Shown in pieces: positions 1,317 to 36,574 of a DNA stretch of 38,049 nucleotides. This DNA comes from a virus, in the IMG/VR virus record IMGVR_UViG_3300025872_000022, positions 1-38,049 of that record; one strand, 5' to 3'. The translations under genes were made by a program, and so were the position numbers. The notes below the pieces were generated by a model. That model saw nothing but the letters and a program-made list of their open reading frames with translations. It was not told the DNA's origin and searched no databases. Numbering within the stretch: position 1 is the first letter of the stretch; each line of letters begins with the position of its first letter.

Positions 1317-3191
1317 ATGAGTAACGACTATGTCTTCGACATCGAAACCTATCCAAACGTGTTCACGCTGGCAGTGGAACATGCGGACGCCCCGCTGCGC
1401 TGGATGTTTGAGATCAGCGACTGGCGTAACGACTCCCGCGAGATTGTTGAGTTTTTGACTTACCTTAAACAGACCAATGCTCGCATGGTCGGCTTTAATA
1501 ATTTAGGGTTTGACTACCCCGTCCTGCACACCCTGATCCGCATGGGTCACAGTGACGCCGATACGTTGTATCAAAAGGCGCAATCAATCATCGGGTCGCA
1601 GGATGAAGACGGTAGCAAGTGGATGCATCTTGTTAAACCGTCTGATCAATTTGTTCCTCAAATTGATTTGTTTAAGATTCACCACTTTGACAACAAGGCA
1701 CGCGCCACTAGTCTCAAGGTGTTGGAGTTTAATATGCGATCCGACACCATTGAGGACTTACCGTTCAAGGTGGGCACCAGCCTAACTCGTGAGCAGATTA
1801 AAGTGCTCAAGCAGTACAACCAGCATGACGTGGTGCAGACCAAGGCGTTCTATCACAAGAGCATCGACATGATCCACTTCCGTGAAGAACTGACGCGCAA
1901 GTACGCCCGGGACTTCATGAACCACAACGACACCAAGATCGGCAAAGACTACTTCGTCATGAAGCTAGAAGAAGCCGGTGTGGCCTGCTACGACTTCGGC
2001 CCCAAGGGTCGCACACCTCGGCAGACCAAGCGTCCAGTGATCCACCTCAAGGATGCCATCCTGCCGTGGATCAGCTTTGAGCAGCCCGAATTTAATCGAG
2101 TGCTGGACTGGCTCAAGGCGCAATCAATCACAGAAACCAAAGGCGTCTTCACTGACCTGACGGCCACGGTCAACGGGTTCACTTTTGTCTTTGGCCTCGG
2201 CGGCATCCATGGCTCCGTCGAATCGGAGGTCATTGAGTCCGATGATGAACATGTCATCGTGGACCTCGATGTCACCTCGTACTACCCGAACCTTGCCATC
2301 GTCAACGGGTTCCACCCGGCCCATCTTGGCAAAGAGTTTGTCAGCATCTACAAGCACCTGTTCGAGCAGCGCAAGCAGTACCCCAAGAAGTCCGCAGAAT
2401 CCGCGATGCTGAAGCTGGCACTCAATGGGGTGTACGGCGACTCCAACAACCAGTTCAGCGTGTTCTACGACCCGCTGTACACCATGACCATCACGCTCAA
2501 CGGTCAACTGCTGCTGTGCCTGCTGGCCGAAGGGTTGATGACGATCCCCGGGCTGCAACTCATTCAAGTGAACACGGACGGTCTGACCGTGCGGGTGCCC
2601 CGGAACATGAAGGTGTTGGTCGATCTGGCCCGAATGGCGTGGCAGGAGCGCACTGGCTTGAACCTTGAAGAAGCCATCTACAAGGCCATGATGATCCGCG
2701 ATGTGAACAACTACATTGGTGTGTTCGATCCTGCGTTTGCGAAACCCGGTGACCCGACTGTCAAGCGCAAGGGTGCCTATGAGTGGAAGATGGGCTGGCA
2801 CCAGAACGCCGGGGGTCTTGTGATTGCCAAGGTCGCCGAGAAGGTGCTGGTCGAGGGTGCGCCGATCCGTGAGACTGTGCAGCAGTGGCCCGATATCATG
2901 GACTTCATGCTTCGCACCAAGGTGCCGCGCAGCAGTTATCTGGCAATCGAGTGGGACGGGCAAGCCCCGCAGCAGTTGCAGAACATCACGAGATATTACA
3001 TCGCTGAAAACGGCGGACGCCTGTTCAAGTACATGCCACCCTTGAAAGGTAAAACCGAGTGGCGAAAAATTGGTGTCGAGAGTGGGTGGAATGTTCAGCC
3101 ATGTAATGACATTAAAGACGCGGGCAAGTTACCTGTAGATTTTGATTACTACGTTCGCGAAATCGAAAAACTTTGTTTGGGGTTAGCATGA
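1317..3191 (+). CDS. Family-B DNA polymerase with 3'-5' exonuclease
   Basis: A 624-aa replicative polymerase, short for family B. The N-terminal exonuclease shows Exo I (D8-I-E10), Exo II (NN then F65-D66) and Exo III (Y167 to D171). The polymerase domain has motif A DVTSYYPN (D318), motif B KLALNGVYG (K366, N370, Y373-G374) and motif C NTDG (D421). In typical family-B enzymes motif C is DTD; here the first Asp is Asn while the second, the metal-binding one, is kept. ATG 1317 is preferred to an in-frame TTG at 1302 because of GAG at 1306-1308, and its leader repeats the DUF2815 leader. The stop overlaps the next start (ATGA). It probably copies the phage genome with the SSB, helicase and primase encoded nearby. 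Confidence 0.9.
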   Translation: MSNDYVFDIETYPNVFTLAVEHADAPLRWMFEISDWRNDSREIVEFLTYLKQTNARMVGFNNLGFDYPVLHTLIRMGHSDADTLYQKAQSIIGSQDEDGSKWMHLVKPSDQFVPQIDLFKIHHFDNKARATSLKVLEFNMRSDTIEDLPFKVGTSLTREQIKVLKQYNQHDVVQTKAFYHKSIDMIHFREELTRKYARDFMNHNDTKIGKDYFVMKLEEAGVACYDFGPKGRTPRQTKRPVIHLKDAILPWISFEQPEFNRVLDWLKAQSITETKGVFTDLTATVNGFTFVFGLGGIHGSVESEVIESDDEHVIVDLDVTSYYPNLAIVNGFHPAHLGKEFVSIYKHLFEQRKQYPKKSAESAMLKLALNGVYGDSNNQFSVFYDPLYTMTITLNGQLLLCLLAEGLMTIPGLQLIQVNTDGLTVRVPRNMKVLVDLARMAWQERTGLNLEEAIYKAMMIRDVNNYIGVFDPAFAKPGDPTVKRKGAYEWKMGWHQNAGGLVIAKVAEKVLVEGAPIRETVQQWPDIMDFMLRTKVPRSSYLAIEWDGQAPQQLQNITRYYIAENGGRLFKYMPPLKGKTEWRKIGVESGWNVQPCNDIKDAGKLPVDFDYYVREIEKLCLGLA

Positions 3192-3457
3192 AAGCACGGG
3201 ACATTCAAATCGGCGGTGACCATTACAAGAACATGGGAGTTGAACCTTGGGATGTAGTTGACACATGGTCCATTGAGCAACGTATTGGGTTTTATCGTGG
3301 CGGTGCGCTTAAGTATCTAATGCGCATGGGAACTAAAGACGAAAACGTTCAAGAGATCCGCAAAGGTGCGCATTACATGCAAAAGTTAGCCGAAGTGTTG
3401 CAAGAACGCGATGATGATCTTAAACATCAACTTGATACCGGATTTCGTGATGCTTGA
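3188..3457 (+). CDS. DUF3310 small phage protein
   Basis: An 89-aa protein whose IGGDHYK motif near the N-terminus, followed by a PWD and a YLMRMGTKD segment, marks the DUF3310 (SaV-like) family common in phage replication operons. Molecular function is not established; the family is often listed near nucleotide-metabolism proteins. Start ATG 3188 overlaps the polymerase stop (ATGA), which indicates translational coupling; an in-frame TTG at 3173 is less likely. Its 3' end overlaps the VRR-NUC gene by 8 nt. Confidence 0.8.
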   Translation: MKARDIQIGGDHYKNMGVEPWDVVDTWSIEQRIGFYRGGALKYLMRMGTKDENVQEIRKGAHYMQKLAEVLQERDDDLKHQLDTGFRDA

Positions 3458-6534: not shown

Positions 6535-6906
6535 TTATTTACCCTTGCGTGCGTAAAACAGTGTACGGTCGCCAAACAAATAGAACCCAACCGCAGCCGC
6601 AAAATTATCAACCGCGTCACTAGGTTGACCGTTCAATTTTAACGCAGCCCATGTACCCAATACCGTCATGGCGACAACAGGACGCATAAGACGCACGGCA
6701 GCTTCAACCCACGGGTATGACGGGTTAGTTCCTCCGGCGTCGTTCATTGTTTTGAACATGTCTAAATCAAGCTGCCGCATTTTGACATACTCGTCTACGT
6801 TGACCGGCTTGTAAGTGTCCGTCTGAATAAACCGACCGATTAAAGATTTTCCCAAATCTACAGCCAGCGGTCCCAATGCAGCGAGTATGGTCAACGGGTC
6901 CATCAT
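6535..6906 (-). CDS. Holin-like membrane protein (GTA_holin_3TM type)
   Basis: A 123-aa protein with three hydrophobic segments, around residues 5-25 (LTILAALGPLAVDL), 72-92 (RPVVAMTVLGTWAALKL) and 100-117, ending in a short basic tail. The central RP followed by a membrane segment and the late FGDRTLFY motif resemble the 3-TM holin family first seen in gene-transfer agents. A holin would permeabilise the inner membrane to release the adjacent endolysin. It is the last gene of the leftward late block, and its start overlaps the endolysin stop (ATGATGG). Function rests on topology and context. Confidence 0.6.
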   Translation of the reverse strand: MMDPLTILAALGPLAVDLGKSLIGRFIQTDTYKPVNVDEYVKMRQLDLDMFKTMNDAGGTNPSYPWVEAAVRLMRPVVAMTVLGTWAALKLNGQPSDAVDNFAAAVGFYLFGDRTLFYARKGK

Positions 6907-7298
6907 GGATATTCTTTACGCGGTAATTGAAAATGCGGACCATCTCGAAAAATTTTCCAATCGCCGCCCCATTCAATCGGAACACTGAGTTCATTCGCCG
7001 CTTCTTTCATTGCTGCGGCAATTTTGTAATACAGCGGCCAATCCCACCGAACTTCGTCTCCTACGTAAGCCCCAAGGTCAACGGCTTTAGCTAGACGATC
7101 GGGTCCGGGGATATGGCGCGAATTTAACGTTTGACTAGCCCCAATTGCCATTAGTGCTTTTTGACGTTCTAATGATCGCACTCCTTCGAGCACTCGAAAA
7201 TTAACTGTCGTAATTTGAATAGCGCGCCTGACTACATTAACTAAATGAGGATGAACACCTTTCAGTCGCAGATCGCAGCGTTGACTCAGTTCGTGCAT
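6903..7298 (-). CDS. M15-family endolysin (L-Ala-D-Glu peptidase type)
   Basis: A 131-aa peptidoglycan peptidase of the M15/VanY family. Predicted zinc ligands and catalytic residues are all present: H62 in SRH, D74 in AVDLG, E109 in PIEWGGDW, and H122 in GPHFQL. It would cleave the cross-linking peptide at lysis. ATG 7298 removes an N-terminal extension that would overlap the upstream membrane protein in another frame, although its Shine-Dalgarno (TTGGAAAA) is weak. No signal peptide is evident, so export needs the holin. Confidence 0.88.
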   Translation of the reverse strand: MHELSQRCDLRLKGVHPHLVNVVRRAIQITTVNFRVLEGVRSLERQKALMAIGASQTLNSRHIPGPDRLAKAVDLGAYVGDEVRWDWPLYYKIAAAMKEAANELSVPIEWGGDWKIFRDGPHFQLPRKEYP

Positions 7299-26977: not shown

Positions 26978-27547
26978 TCACTCTCCCTCGTCCGTCAATC
27001 TCGGGGTCACATCCACCACTTCAGCTTCAATCACCCTAGCCTGCGCCTGCGCAAGAGCCTCGGTAATCGAGATTGTTCCACCCACTTCAATCTGCCTAGT
27101 TTCCCCGTACCGCTTACGATTGTGTGCGCCCATAAGCCACTTTCGCGTATCAATGCGCAACTTGTCTCGGTTAACTGTGTCATTCGATGTTGGATCAATC
27201 GCGCCTATCCCATCAGCAATCTCAAGGATCTCCCCGGCCAAGAACTCAGTGCGCATCTCCTGCGCTTCTTTGAACCGTTCATGGCGAATCGGGTCACGTT
27301 TAATCCAGCGCAAAAAATCCTCGTACGACACAAGTCGATGGTCGTCTTCGATGAGGGATTGCAGGGATCGGCCCCGGTAAACGTCTTCAATTACCCGCTC
27401 GAATATTTGCTCATATTCGACATGGCGAAGGGCTTTGGACTCCGCAGGGAGCCTTGGGGGTTTGGGGTCTGGGCACGACAGCCAGTTTGGAAGAGATTGA
27501 TCACTGGCGACAACCGTGCCTACAGGCTGAGAGTTTCCTTGCTCCAT
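26978..27547 (-). CDS. terS: Terminase small subunit
   Basis: A 189-aa protein. The middle is helical (SYEDFLRWIKRDPIRHERFK), followed by a segment (RDKLRIDTRKWLMGAHNRKR) typical of phage small terminases with a DNA-binding N-terminus and an oligomerisation core. The C-terminus (TPRLTDEGE) is acidic. It recognises the packaging site and recruits TerL. I chose ATG 27547: the frame stays open to 27721, but that stretch overlaps repeats and is not protein-like. The Shine-Dalgarno is weak at 27547. First gene of the leftward late block. Confidence 0.82.
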   Translation of the reverse strand: MEQGNSQPVGTVVASDQSLPNWLSCPDPKPPRLPAESKALRHVEYEQIFERVIEDVYRGRSLQSLIEDDHRLVSYEDFLRWIKRDPIRHERFKEAQEMRTEFLAGEILEIADGIGAIDPTSNDTVNRDKLRIDTRKWLMGAHNRKRYGETRQIEVGGTISITEALAQAQARVIEAEVVDVTPRLTDEGE

Positions 27548-27798
27548 AGTGCTGTCGATGTTAGCACGGTTGTTAAATTTGTGGAATACAAGGATTGATT
27601 GATTACATGACCCCACTGGGTTTTTACTTTTGAAAAAATTTTCAGAATTCTCGTGGTGCTTACGTAGCCGAACCAGCGACCCAGCGGGCCCTACCCCACC
27701 CCCATCAACCCCAAGAATCACAAAACCCAGTGAGTCAAAAACCCGATGGGTAGGCGATAAACAGTAGAACCAATGGGTTTGATTAGATTTTGAGTATC

Positions 27799-27825
27799 TG
27801 GGTTCAATGGGTCATTGGAACCCAG
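27799..27825. repeat. Near-perfect inverted repeat in control region
   Basis: CTGGGTTCAATG (27799-27810) and CATTGGAACCCAG (27813-27825) form a 12-bp stem with one bulged G and a minimal loop. Each arm contains an operator half-site. It could be a binding site for a dimeric regulator or a cruciform. Confidence 0.6.
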
Positions 27826-27835
27826 TGGACTAGAC

Positions 27836-27861
27836 ACAATGGGTTAATAGTCACCCATTGT
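27836..27861. repeat. Perfect 9-bp inverted repeat in control region
   Basis: ACAATGGGT (27836-27844) and ACCCATTGT (27853-27861) are perfect inverted copies around an 8-nt centre, consistent with a paired operator. Confidence 0.7.
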
Positions 27862-28077
27862 TCCCGTGCTTTTGGGTCAAACGTGCTCATGTTCCCAATG
27901 AAACGGGAGACAGCGACATAAAAGCCTTTCCCGCGCGCGCGAACCCTTGACTCAATACGATTTTTAAACAGTCTTTTAATCCGAGAATCTTTTAATCGCA
28001 TGCCCTTATCTTCTAGGCTTGTTGTCACCGTTCTGTTAAACTGCGGGAACACAGACACACTGAAGAAAGAAGAAACA

Positions 28078-28608
28078 ATGAGAAACCGACAAGCAATTGA
28101 AGATGCCGTTTACGACGCATTCCCCGCGATGGATATGTCCGAAATTGAGCGTATGGATACGGACAAACTCGAATGGCTTTTGGAAGTACGACAAGGGAAA
28201 CGTAAAGACCCGGTTGCGATAAATGATCAGAAATTAGGACGCCCGCGCAAACAGAAAACCGGCGTAGTTTGGTCAAAAATTGGCGCGGGTTATGAATTGC
28301 GCGACGGTGTGTTGGTTTATGTTGAACACTGGCGCACATCGAACGAAGCCGGAGACGCCGTGCGCGAATATGTGACTGCATGCGGAGATCGGGTTAGCTA
28401 TGACGGGCGCACCGTTGCAGCGTCCCGACTAAAACACTTTTTACAAACTGGCGAATGGGTGAAGCGAGTGCCTGCACCCACTCGATACCGCGCCCGCGTG
28501 CGCACCACTGGCGGGCTGATACACATTGGCTACTTTGCAACCCGAGAAGAACGGGACGCAGCCGTTTTTGCTTACAAACTAGGGATTTTTCCCAATGGGT
28601 TAAAATAA
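28078..28608 (+). CDS. AT-hook plus AP2-like DNA-binding protein
   Basis: A 176-aa basic protein. Residues 54-58 are an AT-hook core (GRPRK). The C-terminus from about 136 to 170 (YRARVRTTGG, then IHIGYFATREERDAAV) matches the AP2/ERF-type fold that phages often attach to HNH nucleases, here without an HNH motif. The N-terminal 50 residues are helical. It is flanked by ACCCANTGGGT clusters (27611-27861 and 28590-28633), so it may be their ligand; that is inference. ATG 28078 follows AGAAAGAAGAAAC, a weak but usable ribosome site. First gene of the rightward arm. Confidence 0.7.
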   Translation: MRNRQAIEDAVYDAFPAMDMSEIERMDTDKLEWLLEVRQGKRKDPVAINDQKLGRPRKQKTGVVWSKIGAGYELRDGVLVYVEHWRTSNEAGDAVREYVTACGDRVSYDGRTVAASRLKHFLQTGEWVKRVPAPTRYRARVRTTGGLIHIGYFATREERDAAVFAYKLGIFPNGLK

Positions 28609-28633
28609 CCCTTGACATTTGAACCCAGTGGGA
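28590..28633 (+). promoter_or_regulatory. Two operator-like sites bracketing a -35 box
   Basis: TCCCAATGGGT (28590-28600) and ACCCAGTGGGA (28623-28633) each differ from ACCCANTGGGT by one base. They are 33 bp apart centre to centre, about three helical turns. The second fills the promoter spacer, so a bound protein would block RNA polymerase. Confidence 0.6.
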
Positions 28634-28639
28634 TATACT
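28612..28639 (+). promoter_or_regulatory. Consensus-like sigma-70 promoter for the accessory operon
   Basis: TTGACA at 28612-28617 and TATACT at 28634-28639 with a 16-bp spacer. Transcription would start about 28646-28647, which puts the start at or next to the ATG of a 15-codon micro-ORF. The spacer contains an operator-like palindrome, so repression seems likely. Confidence 0.75.
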
Positions 28640-28646
28640 TCTTCAC

Positions 28647-30843: not shown

Positions 30844-30914
30844 TAGCTGCCGCATGCATTGCCCTGCTCGGGCTAATAATCCTCCCAATAATTTCCGATT
30901 TTCTAGACTTATGA
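30840..30914 (+). CDS. 24-aa hydrophobic micro-protein
   Basis: A 24-codon ORF joined to both neighbours by ATGA overlaps: ATG 30840 over the previous TGA, and TGA 30912-30914 over the next ATG. It begins MIAAACIALLGLII and is almost wholly hydrophobic, one transmembrane helix with an acidic end. GAAGGA lies 11 nt upstream. The double overlap and TM-like composition favour a real peptide, perhaps a membrane regulator of lysis or exclusion; function unknown. Confidence 0.5.
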   Translation: MIAAACIALLGLIILPIISDFLDL

Positions 30915-31198
30915 ATAACGCACAAAACCCCGTTTCAAATAGCTTCGCTGCGCGACTGCTTGAGACAATGCACAGACTGAACCTTAATGAGGCACGCGCT
31001 GCAGACTACTTCGGAGTTCCCGTGTTCACTCTTCGCAAGTGGTGCAAAGGTCAACGTGAACCGAGTGCCGTGGCGTTTCGCTTACTCGACGTGCTAGGTA
31101 TGATCGAGGCACTGGCTCCCGCTCTTCATGAATCGTTTTTACCGCCAGTTGAACAACCAACTCCGCGCAAACGGGGTCGGCAAGTAGTGCAGAATTAA
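30911..31198 (+). CDS. HTH transcriptional regulator-like protein
   Basis: A 95-aa protein. Residues about 15-45 (LNLNEARAADYFGVPVFTLRKW) look like a helix-turn-helix where the recognition helix is VPVFTLRKWCKG, followed by a helical region and a basic Pro/Arg/Lys tail. Such small HTH proteins are common phage operon regulators. ATG 30911 overlaps the micro-protein stop. Target unknown; a role on the ACCCANTGGGT sites is possible but untested. Confidence 0.65.
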   Translation: MNNAQNPVSNSFAARLLETMHRLNLNEARAADYFGVPVFTLRKWCKGQREPSAVAFRLLDVLGMIEALAPALHESFLPPVEQPTPRKRGRQVVQN

Positions 31199-36340: not shown

Positions 36341-36370
36341 ACACCCATCAGCACATAAAATTTGATTGCC

Positions 36371-36574
36371 ATGACATCCACTAACAAAGCATCGCATCTG
36401 ACTGTCCGAGTGGCAGACCTTACGCGAGCCAAATTTCACGAGAAGGCAAGAAAGTTCGGGACACCGAGCGAAATCTTACGTGAACTCATCGACGCCTTTA
36501 TTGAAGATCGCGTCACCATTAACCCACCTGTAATCAGTAACCCCAAGGAAAAACTATATGTCCCTCGAAGCTAA
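36371..36574 (+). CDS. Ribbon-helix-helix (CopG/Arc-like) regulator
   Basis: A 67-aa protein: a short beta strand (HLTVRVADL, about 9-17), then two helices (RAKFHEKARKFG and TPSEILRELIDAFIEDR), the RHH pattern of Arc/CopG-type repressors that bind palindromes as dimers. The leader is only about 24 nt from the predicted start at 36347 and has no clear Shine-Dalgarno, so translation may be poor. It may autoregulate the similar promoters at 35991 and 36313. Overlaps the next gene by 17 nt. Confidence 0.65.
   Translation: MTSTNKASHLTVRVADLTRAKFHEKARKFGTPSEILRELIDAFIEDRVTINPPVISNPKEKLYVPRS

Follow-up and report, generated by a model that had tools for sequence, protein, structure and literature searches.

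Arrangement of the locus

The stretch of DNA analyzed here, which we call the window, is a virus record of 38,049 bases that encodes an Sf6-type terminase small subunit, a P22-type portal, a prim-pol/helicase and a phage DNA polymerase. DSL-LC05 (OR003940), a metagenome-assembled lake phage, has a TerL 89% identical to that of the window; for MW202483 and MW202898 the TerL identities are 66% and 50%. Structural genes run leftward from the terminase small subunit gene (TerS) at 27547, and early genes run rightward from about 28640. The stretch between them holds an array of short palindromes, which recurs in a family of uncultured water phages as about 8-10 copies between the early and late genes. 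The features of the locus, with operators and promoters as predicted, are as follows.

26978-27547, minus strand: terminase small subunit (TerS), first late gene (Pfam Sf6_terminase, 5e-18)
27558-27566, minus strand: late terminase promoter, extended -10 (TGCTAACAT), poor -35
27611-27621, no strand: putative operator site 1 (CCCCACTGGGT), upstream of the late terminase promoter, 63 bp from the TerS start
27679-27844, no strand: middle cluster of putative operators, with sites at 27679, 27725, 27741, 27768, 27820 and 27834
28078-28608, plus strand: 176-aa AT-hook/AP2-like protein, an optional insertion and not the proposed binder
28590-28600, no strand: putative operator just upstream of the early -35, overlapping the 3' end of the AP2-like gene
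28612-28639, plus strand: early promoter, TTGACA (28612-28617), 16-bp spacer, TATACT (28634-28639)
28623-28633, no strand: putative operator that fills the early promoter spacer
30911-31198, plus strand: small XRE-like HTH protein (95 aa) in the early operon, proposed array-binding regulator

With the consensus ACCCRNYGGGT, which was derived from the phage family and not from the window alone, and with up to one mismatch, 8 sites fall within 27601-28640 against 0.14 expected, and 0 of 5,000 shuffles reach 8; the remaining 37 kb of the window contains 8 scattered sites at the same stringency. Measured against ACCCANTGGGT, near-copies with one mismatch begin at 27611, 27725, 27741, 27768, 27834, 28590 and 28623 and those with two at 27679 and 27820, and an exact copy is found nowhere in the window. 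Sites of the middle cluster have 1 or 2 mismatches to the consensus, apart from 27741, which has none. Across the whole window, ACCCANTGGGT with up to two mismatches occurs 25 times where 14.6 are expected, a count equaled by 1 of 100 shuffles; as the sites are degenerate and restricted to a single place, this enrichment is only mild. The shuffles, together with the reversed-pattern control given below, rule out a chance origin, and the palindrome array is real. The original prediction of at least eight near-copies in two clusters, one of them around the early -35 box, is confirmed by the mismatch scan, the family-consensus count and the shuffles. Of the two sites at the early promoter, that at 28590 precedes the -35 and that at 28623-28633 lies exactly between the -35 and the -10.

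The gene at 28078 had been described as combining an AT-hook with an AP2 domain. This description stands as far as inspection by eye goes, which picks out GRPRK and a C-terminal AP2-like pattern, but Pfam finds neither domain: 0 families match the 176-aa protein of the window at E up to 1, and at E up to 0.1 neither AP2 nor AT_hook matches any of 13 homologues. The structure model (pTM 0.39) shows a C-terminal strand-strand-helix that would be compatible with an AP2-like domain; a Foldseek search with it found no match at E up to 0.001. There is also a weak profile match to HNH endonucleases, which hints that the gene may be related to homing endonucleases.

Between the middle cluster and the early promoter region lies a noncoding block (27935-28060) that is GC-rich, then T/A-rich, and ends near TTGTCACC. 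By eye this block is conserved even in the relatives L049, L033 and L054, which have no array, and its role may be that of an origin or of some other control element.

Conservation of the array and the protein that accompanies it

Eighty fetched TerL relatives, the window and three named phages gave 84 regions upstream of TerL, of which 12 were too short and 72 (at least 1 kb) were usable. The array, defined as at least four sites, is kept in 62 of these 72 mutually related and hence not independent regions, and the same pattern reversed gives 0 of 72. Exact sites are common in many relatives at places where the copies of the window are degenerate. The ten regions scored as array-less are L033, L042, L048, L049, L054, L062, L076 (which has three sites), L082, L005 and L006. 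Near-duplicates (L007, L024, L026 and L027) are left out of the spacer, per-site, TerS-distance and phasing counts given below.

Several relatives without the array carry other repeats at its position. In L049 (locus 6754-7140) this is AAACATC-N11-GATGTTT, and upstream of TerL there are TGACCAATCGGTCA in L048, pairs of TTGTCACA in L054 and GTTTA-N2-TAAAC in L005. Since these array-less relatives have other repeats in the same place, they suggest that the same switch logic could be run by other proteins. No HTH was seen by eye in the early operon of L049, among the ORFs outside the structural middle of the record. A further kind of repeat occurs in L136, where about six tandem copies of GGTGCTAGT (3184-3242) separate the TerS promoter from the first palindrome.

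Among the early-region proteins tested, taken from the window and DSL-LC05, it is the small HTH protein that tracks the array; of the 35 regions that reach 6 kb, 31 have it. Of the 44 regions that span 4.3 kb or more, 39 have both the array and the HTH protein, four (L033, L049, L005 and L006) have neither, and none has the array without the protein; the one remaining region, L076, has the HTH protein and a weak array of only three sites. Starting instead from the HTH protein, we collected 80 loci, five of which had too little upstream sequence and were left out; the array was found at 75 of the 75 loci with at least 2.5 kb upstream, in a scan whose helix-based patterns favored the canonical class. 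A search for the HTH protein in the genome contigs collection gave one weak relative. A short protein at 36362-36574, by eye of the ribbon-helix-helix (Arc-like) type, has a counterpart at 2119-2328 in DSL-LC05. This DSL-LC05 copy has homologues in 25 regions, and it was rejected as the binder because these regions include the array-less L033 and L049.

The HTH protein is predicted by AlphaFold2 to form the five-helix HTH fold (mean pLDDT 85.6). Its neighbors by Foldseek and VIA-align are XRE-type HTH domains, including HigA2 (Z 8.5-8.9), MqsA (Z 7.7-7.8), and Aca and P2 C (6.5-7.2), although structure Z scores below 8 are common by chance, and Foldseek gave no match at E below 0.001. At E up to 0.1, HTH_3 is found in 23 of 36 members of the HTH family (best 6.6e-6), HTH_31 in 20 (best 1.1e-8) and the MqsA profile in 24. 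Profiles recognize the protein of the window as HTH only weakly, at 15.3 bits against a cut-off of 23 in the HTH_3/HTH_31 test and at 16.6 bits with MqsA, under the Pfam gathering cut-off of 30. A phage profile named 'transcriptional repressor' matches it at 1.2e-5.

Differences in the recognition helix go along with differences in the repeats. Where the helix reads GVPV[FY]T, the array consists of ACCC-N3-GGGT; GVP[QE][ST]T pairs with GCAC-N3-GTGC, and GVKITTW with RACCCATTGM. We noticed these classes, and did not predict them, after outliers had been seen, and the L210-type array was sought once that exception had been found. L210 has the HTH protein without the canonical array, and its helix is GVPQTT instead of GVPV[FY]T. 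L233 (the same as L210), L234, L235 and L236 contain 3, 3, 5 and 5 exact GCAC-N3-GTGC palindromes at the array position, counts that 0 of 1,000 shuffles reach in any of the four regions and that compare with at most one in 68 other regions; the helices of L234-L236 are GVPQTT, GVPETT and GVPEST. Since the HTH proteins of L234 and L210 are 99% identical, at best three of the GCAC-class sequences are independent. In the GVKITTWRNW class, L062 (the same as L237), L238 and L239 carry 12, 8 and 12 exact copies of the asymmetric RACCCATTGM, which occurs 0-2 times in 67 other regions. L075 and L076, with the helix GVSVFTLRHW, have weakened sites. The ACCC and GCAC classes keep the same geometry of two four-base half-sites three bases apart. 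The underlying alignment of HTH proteins omits L004, L007, L023, L024, L026, L027, L028, L046 and L083. This covariation of helix and repeat is the strongest evidence that the HTH protein reads the array. The protein at 30911-31198 is the best candidate for its binder. The original prediction had cast the AT-hook/AP2-like gene as the regulator and had named the HTH protein at 30911 as the alternative that would speak against it; the evidence favors the latter.

Promoters at the two ends of the array

A site occupies the spacer of a strong promoter (TTGACA or near, 15-19 bp, TAnnnT or near) in 34 of 58 arrays, and most of these sites are, like that of the window, among the last ones ahead of the early genes; by this definition, no strong promoter lies over any site in the other 24. 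Counted per site, 34 of 529 sites fall in a promoter spacer, compared with 313 of 84,422 control positions. Given established promoter anatomy, a protein bound between the -35 and -10 elements would block polymerase, and a protein occupying the spacer site would be expected to do so at the early promoter.

At the other end of the array, the distance from site 1 to the TerS start falls into three groups, 42-43 bp (14 regions), 51-54 bp (26) and 61-64 bp (14), which together account for 54 of 57 regions with never a value between them; in the other three regions site 1 lies 101, 115 and 128 from the TerS start. L075 and L076, in which no TerS start is recognizable, are left out of these distances. 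In 40 of 56 regions the late promoter has its extended -10, TGNTANNNT, 8-11 bases ahead of the start codon. Leaving out the 16 regions without a strict extended -10 and two with far sites, site 1 is phased to this element at 10.5 bp (R = 0.89, thinned set, n=20), with the reservation that there are three distance clusters only, so that periods from 9.5 to 11 bp fit nearly equally, and that relatedness inflates any p-value. In L237 and L238 the first asymmetric sites, located by hand at about 62 bp from the start codon, share this phase. Between site 1 and site 2 no clear phasing is seen (R = 0.29, 35 thinned arrays), and within the array we found no helical period at 10.5 bp and a weak one at 5.3 bp. 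Because the phase of site 1 is fixed to the promoter and not to the other sites, the spacing suggests contact with polymerase, and hence activation of the late promoter by a protein at site 1, rather than looping.

TerS seems to begin 3-4 bases after the transcription start predicted from the extended -10 (TGNTANNNT; 27545-27566), and no clear ribosome-binding site is seen there; on these grounds the TerS mRNA may be leaderless. The array-less L033, L049 and L054 have the same layout.

A candidate early-to-late switch

We consider it likely that the array is the operator set of the early-operon HTH protein, serving early repression and, probably, late activation. Early in infection, host RNA polymerase would use the strong early promoter (28612-28639) and the HTH protein would be made. 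It could then bind the ACCC-N3-GGGT palindromes, presumably as a dimer, and from the site in the -35/-10 spacer it would shut the early promoter, in a form of negative autoregulation. Upstream of the terminase promoter, with its weak -35 and extended -10, the protein would sit on a fixed face of the helix and might help polymerase to start late transcription, and the middle cluster probably loads it cooperatively. The original view of the layout as one that turns off early genes and touches the late side without CI/Cro is supported and strengthened by the conservation of the array, the spacer position and the phasing.

Alternatively, the AT-hook/AP2-like protein could bind the array and be the switch itself. 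Its gene lies between both clusters in the window, it has DNA-binding-like features by eye, and a homologue is present at 13 of the 75 HTH loci with an array. However, the gene is absent from 35 of 39 array regions, its four occurrences include two in the same phage, and L033 has it without the array. Together with the lack of a Pfam AT-hook or AP2 match, this leaves the original assignment of the regulator highly improbable, and the protein is very probably not the array binder. No match to the protein was found in the named phages, nor was an AP2-like gene matched in the DSL-LC05 region. Where the gene is present it separates the cluster from the early promoter, placing the last sites ~1.65 kb instead of ~1.1 kb from TerL, and it reads as an inserted passenger. 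Still less credible, in our estimate, is a packaging (pac) site read by TerS: the array adjoins the TerS gene, but TerS does not follow the array, since the array-less L033 and L049 have TerS proteins 71% and 74% identical to that of the window, and this reading was dropped.

An iteron-type replication origin, with the HTH protein as initiator or copy-control protein and the promoter overlap secondary, fits the way the repeats adjoin a conserved noncoding block where transcription diverges (about 27935-28060). Yet an origin would need neither a site in the early spacer nor a site 1 phased to the late promoter, the spacing within the array lacks a 10.5-bp period, and the block persists in L049, L033 and L054, which have no array; we regard this explanation as unlikely. 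Temperate phages, in which the HTH protein would be a lysogeny (immunity) repressor acting on the array, are more doubtful again. That operator specificity is exchanged among related phages is reminiscent of heteroimmunity, and the HTH homologue of DSL-LC05 is annotated as 'repressor protein C', but the 58 annotated features of DSL-LC05 include no integrase, this phage is predicted to be virulent in the available text of its authors' description (PMC10611076), and the HTH gene sits inside the early operon that it would shut off. We therefore retain the HTH protein as the probable early repressor and late activator.

In its predicted fold class this protein resembles the small XRE-type HTH autorepressors, such as HigA2, the MqsA C-terminal domain, Aca and P2 C. 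Such autorepressors act on short palindromic operators over their own promoter. The protein differs from them in its weak sequence similarity (16.6 bits against 30 for MqsA), in having 8-10 sites with the late promoter as a second target, and in that no toxin or anti-CRISPR partner was identified. Unlike the lambda CI/Cro region, the array has TerS on one side and the early genes on the other, with the HTH gene some 2.3 kb further downstream, and no divergent repressor/cro pair was found; since the second divergent unit is the terminase, this is not a CI/Cro region. DSL-LC05, with its closely related TerL, shares the array, the HTH homologue and the spacer operator; in the available text of its description (PMC10611076) the array region is not treated and the word 'repressor' occurs 0 times. 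Among open-licence PMC papers, those matching forms of the motif bear off-topic titles, and no comparable switch was seen among those listed.

The switch logic is of the known phi29 p4 type, with a different protein and site. According to the text available for p4 (PMC3100819), one early protein uses several sites between the early (A2b/A2c) and late (A3) promoters, with overlap between these sites and elements of the early promoters, and the -35 of the late promoter is poor. By position, the sites described here likewise overlap early promoter elements and precede a late promoter with a poor -35. In the same text, p4 is a protein of distinct fold that recognizes CTTTTT-15 bp-AAAATG jointly with p6. 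The switch proposed here instead pairs an XRE-like HTH protein with ACCC-N3-GGGT sites; p4 is not among the matches listed in the structure search with the HTH protein, which are XRE-type HTH chains.

If the proposed role of the HTH protein is right, it would provide a switch that is compact and testable, for phages often met in metagenomes yet uncultured, and an example of p4-like logic built from a different protein, while the natural protein/operator pairs would make the recognition rules of the small HTH fold readable. It would also correct a tempting annotation error, as the AP2-like gene next to the operators, though eye-catching, has the look of a passenger. A bolder proposal, which we advance tentatively and with some doubt, is that in a large clade of freshwater podophages, all of them virulent, a lone XRE-like protein makes up the entire early-to-late switch, acting through a plug in the early promoter spacer and by driving a phased late promoter with an extended -10, and that its helix and all operators have changed in concert at least twice, from ACCC to GCAC and from symmetric to asymmetric. 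Should this be true, these phages would hold a natural helix-to-operator code, and incompatibility groups would exist among closely related virulent phages.
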